A stretch of 64,000 nt of DNA from an uncultured Pelagibacteraceae bacterium (GTDB lineage: Bacteria > Pseudomonadota > Alphaproteobacteria > Pelagibacterales > Pelagibacteraceae): positions 171,001-235,000 of the forward strand of contig CABXZD010000002.1 of the NCBI GenBank assembly GCA_902516465.1. Direction: 5' to 3'. The translations under genes and the position numbers were made by a program. The notes under the pieces were generated by a model, which ran no database searches, was not told where the DNA came from, and was given only the letters and a program-made list of their open reading frames with translations. Below, piece after piece: positions 32,793 through 35,052 of the stretch. Each line of letters starts with the position of its first letter. Within the stretch, counting starts at the first letter, position 1.

Positions 32793-32914
32793 TAATAGTT
32801 ATTCTATTTTATTAAAAACTCACGATCTATAAATAAATTTGAGGTTTTAATCAACTAAGAATTTAAATTAAAGATTTCCGTAAAATTCAAGTTATTAAGG
32901 GTTTTAGTGAGTTT

Positions 32915-34240
32915 TTAGTAAATTTTTGCTCCTAAAAATCTAACTTTTTCGAGGAATGATGGGAAAGAAGTATTTATTGCATCCTTATCAAAAATTTTCC
33001 AATTTCCTCCAAAACATAAGGCAGCAATTACACTTGACATAAAAACCCTGTGGTCTTTTAAAAAATTTTTAATTATTATTTTTTTTTTTATTTGAAAATT
33101 TGGATCACCGTATATTTTAATACTGTTACTATCGATCTTATTTTTTATTCCAATTTTATTTAAAATTTTGGATCCCCATATTAACCTAGGGCTCTCTTTT
33201 TGATTAAGTTCTGAGAGATTTTTAAAGTAAGATACGCCACTTGCTCTGGCAGCAACAAGAAAAATTAATAGAAATTCATCTATTGCCTCACTATTAAACC
33301 TAATTGGGCACTTTATAGGTTTAATATCTTTTTTACTTTTTATGATAATGTCAGCAATTTTTTCTCCTTTATAGTCTCTTTTGTTTTTAAGTTGAATATC
33401 TACACCCATTAATTTTAATATTTTTAAAATTCCAGATCTAGTAGGGTTTACATTCACATCTTTTATTTTCAATTTAGAATTTTTAGATAAGGCTGTAAGT
33501 ACTATGAAAAAAGCACTAGAACTAATATCGGATGGAATCTTATAATTAAATGCTTTGATATTTTTTTTTCCTTTAATCTTAATTAGATCAAATTTTTTGT
33601 TTTTTTTAATTTTAATAGGTAATTTCAAATATTTAAAAAATAATTCTGTATGATCACGAGATTTTTTTGCCTTAATAATAGTATTACCTTTTGTATTAAG
33701 TGCTGCTAACATTATACTACTTTTACTTTGTGCTGACCCTTTGTTTTCATAAAATTTGATAGGCTTTGGATCGCTCGTTCCCTTTATAAATATAGGCAAT
33801 TTTCCTGATTTACTCTTAAAATTTGCTCCAAACTTAGTCAAAGGTTTTGTGACTCTTAAAAAATCTCTTTTTGATAAACTTTTGTCTCCTGTTAACTTTA
33901 TTTTAGATTGAGAATGAACTAAAAGCCCAAGAATAAGTCTACTTAAAGTACCAGAATTTCCAGCATTTAAAGTAATTTTTTTTTTATAATTGAAACTATT
34001 TAAGCCTTTACTATTTATCTCACAATAATCTTTTTTCTGTTTTATTTTAACACCCATTTTTTTTAGACACTTCAAAGTATTTAGTACGTCTTCCGATTTA
34101 AGTAGGTTAGAAGCTCTTGATTTACCATAAGCCTGAGAAGCTAATAGTGCCCATCTTATTGAAAGACTTTTATCTCCCTCAATTTTAATCGATCTATTAA
34201 ATGGTTTAATTTTTTTGAAAATAACTACACTATTATTCAT
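32915..34240 (-). CDS. aroA: 3-phosphoshikimate 1-carboxyvinyltransferase
   Basis: GDKSLSIRWALLA, LNAGNSGTLSRL, GSAQSKSSIMLAAL, RDHTELFF. Confidence 0.95.
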   Translation of the reverse strand: MNNSVVIFKKIKPFNRSIKIEGDKSLSIRWALLASQAYGKSRASNLLKSEDVLNTLKCLKKMGVKIKQKKDYCEINSKGLNSFNYKKKITLNAGNSGTLSRLILGLLVHSQSKIKLTGDKSLSKRDFLRVTKPLTKFGANFKSKSGKLPIFIKGTSDPKPIKFYENKGSAQSKSSIMLAALNTKGNTIIKAKKSRDHTELFFKYLKLPIKIKKNKKFDLIKIKGKKNIKAFNYKIPSDISSSAFFIVLTALSKNSKLKIKDVNVNPTRSGILKILKLMGVDIQLKNKRDYKGEKIADIIIKSKKDIKPIKCPIRFNSEAIDEFLLIFLVAARASGVSYFKNLSELNQKESPRLIWGSKILNKIGIKNKIDSNSIKIYGDPNFQIKKKIIIKNFLKDHRVFMSSVIAALCFGGNWKIFDKDAINTSFPSFLEKVRFLGAKIY

Positions 34241-34264
34241 TTATTCATTTATTCATTTATTCAT
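34233..34264. repeat. Perfect tandem repeat (TTATTCAT)x4 covering the aroA start codon
   Basis: CAT triplets at 34238, 34246, 34254, 34262 with exact 8-bp period. Confidence 0.98.
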
Positions 34265-34275
34265 TGTTTCTAAAT

Positions 34276-35052
34276 TTAGCTAATTTTGAAAGATTCTCCA
34301 AAATAAGCGTTTTTTGCGTCAATATTCGTGATTAAATTTGAGGGTGTTCCTTGGGCTACAACTTTTCCATTGCTTATTATTGCTGCTGAGTCAACACAAG
34401 CTAGTAGATCTCTAGCTTGATGATCACATAATACTATAGAAATATTGTTATTACTTTGTAAGTTTACTATTATTTCTTGTAAAGTTTTAATTGTCATAAC
34501 ATCAAGAGCTGCAAAGGGTTCATCTAAAAGTAAAATCTTTGGGTCAGATATTAACGCAATAGCTATAACAAGTTTTTTTTTTTGACCACCTGATAAAAAA
34601 TCTGCTTTAATATCTCTTATTGAGTCTAATTCAAATTTTGAGATTAACGAATTAATTTTTTCATCTCTAATATTTGAATTATTTATTGCAATTTCTGAAA
34701 TAGCTTTTAAGTTTTCATAAACTGTTAAATCATGAAAAAATCCGCCATATTGGGGCACAAAACCAATTTTAAATTTTAAAGTTCTTTCATATATTGGAAA
34801 TCCATTGACCTTCTCTGAGTTGATGAAAATTGTTCCGAAATCTGGAGAGATTAAACCGGTAATGAGATTGAAGATTGTGGTTTTTCCAACTCCATTGGGG
34901 CCTAAAAGTCCCAATATCTGACCGTTATTAAGTTGTAAATTGAAATTATCTAAAATAATTTTTCTACCATATTTAAGAGATACTTTTTCTAAATTAAGAA
35001 TAGATTTTGTTTTTTTGAAAGATTTGATCCTAAATTTTTTTATATTTGACAT
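34276..35052 (-). CDS. lptB: LPS export ABC transporter ATP-binding protein
   Basis: LLGPNGVGKTTIFNLITGL, LSGGQKKKLVIAIAL, LLLDEPFAALD; adjacent to LptC-like gene. Confidence 0.9.
   Translation of the reverse strand: MSNIKKFRIKSFKKTKSILNLEKVSLKYGRKIILDNFNLQLNNGQILGLLGPNGVGKTTIFNLITGLISPDFGTIFINSEKVNGFPIYERTLKFKIGFVPQYGGFFHDLTVYENLKAISEIAINNSNIRDEKINSLISKFELDSIRDIKADFLSGGQKKKLVIAIALISDPKILLLDEPFAALDVMTIKTLQEIIVNLQSNNNISIVLCDHQARDLLACVDSAAIISNGKVVAQGTPSNLITNIDAKNAYFGESFKIS

Follow-up and report, generated by a model that had tools for sequence, protein, structure and literature searches.

What does it mean for a biosynthetic gene to begin in the last copy of a tandem repeat, every unit of which carries a start codon of its own, and is such an arrangement a means of control or an accident that the gene tolerates? 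The question is raised by the start of aroA in the window, by which we mean the whole stretch of 64,000 nucleotides analysed here. A perfect tandem array, (ATGAATAA)x4, occupies positions 34264..34233 of the minus strand in the context AACA-ATGAATAA-ATGAATAA-ATGAATAA-ATGAATAATAGTGTAG, and its units are all identical. TRF places it at 34233-34265 (period 8, 4.1 copies, 100% match), base 34265 also matching the repeat, one position beyond the four full units; its score of 66 is the highest within the 64-kb window. The ATGs of the array lie at 34264, 34256, 34248 and 34240 (minus strand), and the first three each open a mini-ORF that reads ATG AAT AAA TGA and encodes MNK*. The first (ATGAATAAATGA; 34253..34264, minus) is in the frame of aroA and terminates ahead of it; the second (34245..34256, minus) shares ATGA overlaps with the first and the third; and the TGA of the third (34237..34248, minus) overlaps the ATG of aroA. 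These stop-start overlaps, of -4 nt each, are located at 34256, 34248 and 34240. The fourth ATG opens aroA (32915..34240, minus), whose 441-aa product, EPSP synthase, matches PF00275 with an E-value of 2.3e-74 and has full-length homologues in about 100 genomes of the same genus. The first-pass annotation had reported a perfect fourfold octamer at 34233-34264, which sequence and TRF confirm to the base; it had also read three MNK* mini-ORFs, each with a TGA overlapping the next ATG, and had taken the fourth ATG as the aroA start, and both readings are correct, the latter in view of the 441-aa ORF and its PF00275 match.

The gene directly upstream (34276..35052, minus) encodes an ABC-transporter ATPase, recognised from the ORF list and a profile match; it was named lptB because it is placed behind an lptC-like gene (PF06835; 35055..35636, minus), which lies upstream within one gene run with lptB and aroA. 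The lptB stop is separated from the first ATG by a spacer of 11 nt (ATTTAGAAACA; 34265..34275, minus), in which no Shine-Dalgarno-like core was found, and the stop-to-start distance is +11 nt at this first ATG and then -4, -4 and -4 along the array. A promoter of its own was considered for aroA and rejected: promoter-like matches in the region (29) are not above those in shuffles (29.9), so that no promoter is indicated near the gene. Structure in the RNA around the aroA start is below that of shuffles (z 1.73; centroid 0 kcal/mol), that is, folding revealed no stable structure there, and the array region had no match in Rfam. On the other side of aroA, about 120 bp (window 32793-32914) are followed by a 574-aa S1-like ORF, rpsA by appearance. 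In Alphaproteobacteria cmk commonly sits between aroA and rpsA; it is absent between aroA and the S1-like ORF.

The repeat length of 8 bp, not a multiple of three, had been thought to matter. This invokes the wrong mechanism: each unit contains its own ATG and the last unit is always joined to AATAATAGTGTA and AroA, so that the last unit sets the frame, and AroA would be in frame at any copy number. Gain or loss of units would change how many MNK* ORFs there are and how far aroA lies from the lptB stop, and nothing else. Moreover, the array runs through a 24-nt cycle (ATG AAT AAA TGA ATA AAT GAA TAA) with stops in all three forward frames, and therefore, with four units, no upstream frame continues into AroA. 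With an ATG in every unit and all three forward frames closed, frame-switching phase variation is ruled out.

The array is not a product of chance, because an order-3 Markov null of 6 x 400 kb (2.4 Mb) gave zero arrays of period 5-15 with at least 3.5 copies. In the genome that bears it (about 1 Mb, GC 28.6%, both of which agree with the putative SAR11 label), perfect arrays of at least four copies and period 5-15 number two in 789 kb, the aroA octamer and a pentamer at pnp; of two complete relatives, each sampled over 200 kb, one had none and the other a single 9-mer array of 3.6 copies. Short tandem arrays are therefore rare in these genomes, yet present. Both arrays of the own genome occupy intercistronic gaps immediately ahead of a start codon, and in a gene-dense genome such gaps would be nearly the sole refuge for repeats with a length not divisible by three. 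Among the 654 ORFs of at least 150 aa in this genome, three ATGA-joined mini-ORFs precede the start of aroA alone (1/654); 626 ORFs have none, 26 have one and a single ORF has two. The two-unit pattern, ATGAATAAATGAATAA, has no further site in the own genome, where its presence at aroA only rules out a genome-dispersed repeat family.

The pnp array consists of 5.4 copies of the pentamer AACGA in the rpsO-pnp gap (G000:C2:101317-101343; L157:1317-1343), 10 nt upstream of the pnp ATG, and had no match in Rfam. Six other species of the genus have at least three units in this position, the copy number ranging from about 3 to 5.4. Of 30 pnp junctions compared, the majority have a related, purine-rich leader (GAAACGAACGAAACGAAATGGAAATGAAATG) in which additional ATGs lie at -11 and -5. 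Being conserved in position and differing in copy number between species, the pnp array is a stronger candidate than the aroA array for a repeat that functions at a start codon. A perfect 12-bp repeat, GCTAAGAAAAAA, of 2.8 copies was also seen outside the listed ORFs of at least 60 aa (G000:C2:128130-128163; L158:8130-8163), and may be part of a short lysine-rich protein.

The history of the array was approached through the lptB-aroA junction of relatives, sampled as one genome per species. AroA was detected in 171 of 200 relatives, and 98 junctions of the same genus were compared. In all 98 the ATPase gene lies directly upstream of aroA, with a gap of -1 to 24 nt (median 7); the stop-start spacing is short or overlapping throughout, a conserved feature as in coupled gene pairs. 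None of the 98 junctions has the array, an extra ATG inside the gap (each has a single start) or a Shine-Dalgarno-like core ahead of aroA, and two units at aroA were found in none of the 398 other same-genus genomes searched (399 including the own one). A clade-conserved element is thereby ruled out. The gap of the window is 35 nt when measured to the aroA ATG, beyond all 98 relatives, and 11 nt when measured to the first ATG, within their range; collapse of the array to one unit would leave a gap of 11 nt, not 35. Near-identical single units open aroA in two relatives, L009 (ATGAATAATGTT, gap 12) and L073 (ATGAATAAAGTT, gap 13). Since the relatives are single-start and array-free and the one-unit gap of 11 nt falls in their range, the simplest account would be a lineage-specific expansion of an original single start; its age is only loosely bounded, because the nearest AroA in the sample is only about 72% identical.

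Outside this locus, the two-unit pattern occurs once more in the 399 same-genus genomes, at an unrelated site (G268, L151) that was rejected as an aroA case, being on the opposite strand in the 5' part of a 422-aa histidine kinase-like ORF. At least three units were found in 36 genome contigs and one viral contig, in most of which no long ORF begins at the array. The clear exception is Intestinirhabdus alba L123, where (ATGAATAA)x3 is located on the minus strand at 2438-2461 and the last ATG opens a 310-aa winged-helix regulator of the Trans_reg_C family (PF00486); the region had no match in E. coli genomes. As this unrelated gene shows the same layout, a chain of mini-ORFs can arise independently.

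Several known systems resemble the array in part; a literature search turned up no paper dealing directly with repeats in SAR11 or with octanucleotide repeats at gene starts. For mycobacterial interspersed repetitive units (MIRU), it has been argued that insertion takes place at start codons, with an ORF of the element placed at -4 nt to the gene, and has little effect (PMC12548453). Like them, the aroA array is a repeat at a start codon, with a small ORF of its own that ends in an ATGA overlap (-4 nt) with the gene start, so that coupling to upstream translation would be retained; however, MIRUs are dispersed at many loci and apparently mobile, whereas the array is built from an 8-bp unit of the gene's own start at one locus. 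The TAACTGA heptamers of marine Beggiatoaceae also form two to six direct repeats just upstream of starts, mostly without Shine-Dalgarno sequences and with forward stops, but they come in about 169 sets per genome and have no ATG in the unit (PMC4679880), while the aroA array is single and its unit holds the start codon. With the SSR contingency loci of Haemophilus and Neisseria it has in common a short, perfect tandem repeat that exceeds chance expectation and lies at the 5' end of a gene, where slippage is possible in principle; in contrast to them, copy number here cannot switch the frame, and no promoter is indicated whose spacing it might alter. Finally, minigenes such as lambda bar are translated and able to alter downstream translation. 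In the case of the axe-txe minigene mg2, an upstream ORF of two or three codons can change the translation of a gene (PMC8708949), but that is a single minigene and not a chain of three joined by ATGA.

We consider the array to be most probably (at roughly 0.6) a tolerated, frame-proof slippage expansion, with the gene reached by a ribosome relay or by local initiation, rather than an on/off switch; slippage as its origin, the relay and near-neutrality are what we infer. The ancestral state would be one start segment of aroA (ATGAATAATAG...) that followed the lptB stop at about 11 nt, and in this lineage slipped-strand replication may have multiplied it to four units. The result is frame-proof because the unit consists of an ATG and a stop overlapping the next ATG, and the last ATG leads into AroA. 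Ribosomes ending lptB would probably initiate at the first ATG (+11 nt) and could then pass from one mini-ORF to the next, at a spacing of -4, until they reach aroA; alternatively, since the RNA there is unstructured, and AU-rich, fresh initiation may take place at the fourth ATG. Either route would give a sufficient supply of AroA, with at most a modest loss of yield for each extra unit. In E. coli reporters reinitiation is almost abolished at a gap of +38 nt (PMC10666635), so that a plain insertion of 24 nt would be expected to weaken coupling to lptB. As its sequence reads, the array is unlike such an insertion in that it presents a putative landing ATG at +11 nt followed by three steps of -4, and -4 and -1 overlaps are the most frequent spacings of neighbouring genes (PMC12548453). 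The two-codon minigene of axe-txe, a single case, raised downstream translation, with distance as a key parameter (PMC8708949). Against a tolerated expansion, the main doubt is that termination and reinitiation may be inefficient on an ORF of only three codons; the output of AroA could also fall through peptidyl-tRNA drop-off or decoy initiation, and absence of the array from other species is no proof of neutrality within its own.

Of the alternatives, the one that survives best, though we think it unlikely, is a copy-number tuner, in which slippage makes members of the population differ in their count of MNK* mini-ORFs, thereby adjusting aroA translation as a rheostat and not as a frame switch. 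The array is a genuine perfect repeat located at a start codon, and mini-ORFs and their spacing can alter downstream translation in E. coli, as with mg2 (PMC8708949). The earlier suggestion that the array may tune initiation or reinitiation holds insofar as the chain of mini-ORFs is real and its geometry suits termination-reinitiation; yet no relative shares the array (0/98 junctions, 0/398 other genomes), and the frame is unaffected by copy number; tuning would call for selection or for variation within the population. Furthermore, aroA serves biosynthesis through the shikimate pathway, whereas contingency genes typically concern surface structures, and four octamer copies make a short array, at the low end of the length for instability.

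It is quite improbable that the array acts as a decoy or poison leader, whose tandem minigenes would trap initiating ribosomes, release MNK peptidyl-tRNA and repress aroA, with a mildly deleterious or a regulatory outcome. With three codons, the ORFs are of a length at which peptidyl-tRNA drop-off can occur, a process described as common early in translation (PMC10192219), and the aroA start has been shifted to +35 nt from lptB, further than in any relative. However, stop-over-start overlaps are the arrangement that favours reinitiation, and selection in a large population would be expected to remove anything that strongly represses a core gene. To a similarly small degree we would credit a relay made from a microsatellite, in which three-codon ORFs, one per 8-bp slippage step, would ferry lptB ribosomes over the gap and provide a graded, frame-safe control of aroA. 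An assembly or consensus artefact is highly improbable: although the array is present in one genome only, a draft of 20 contigs that is 87% complete, it measures 33 bp, shorter than common read lengths, has unique flanks and an intact AroA, and is interior to a 268-kb contig.

The aroA array illustrates a kind of repeat that a start codon can safely accommodate, because its copy number cannot break the reading frame. Published reinitiation studies disagree on whether ribosomes step through successive short ORFs; if the relay works, this locus would be a minimal natural test of post-termination ribosomes stepping through successive three-codon ORFs at -4 spacing. If the array is neutral, it would be a clean example of slippage tolerated in a gene-dense genome.
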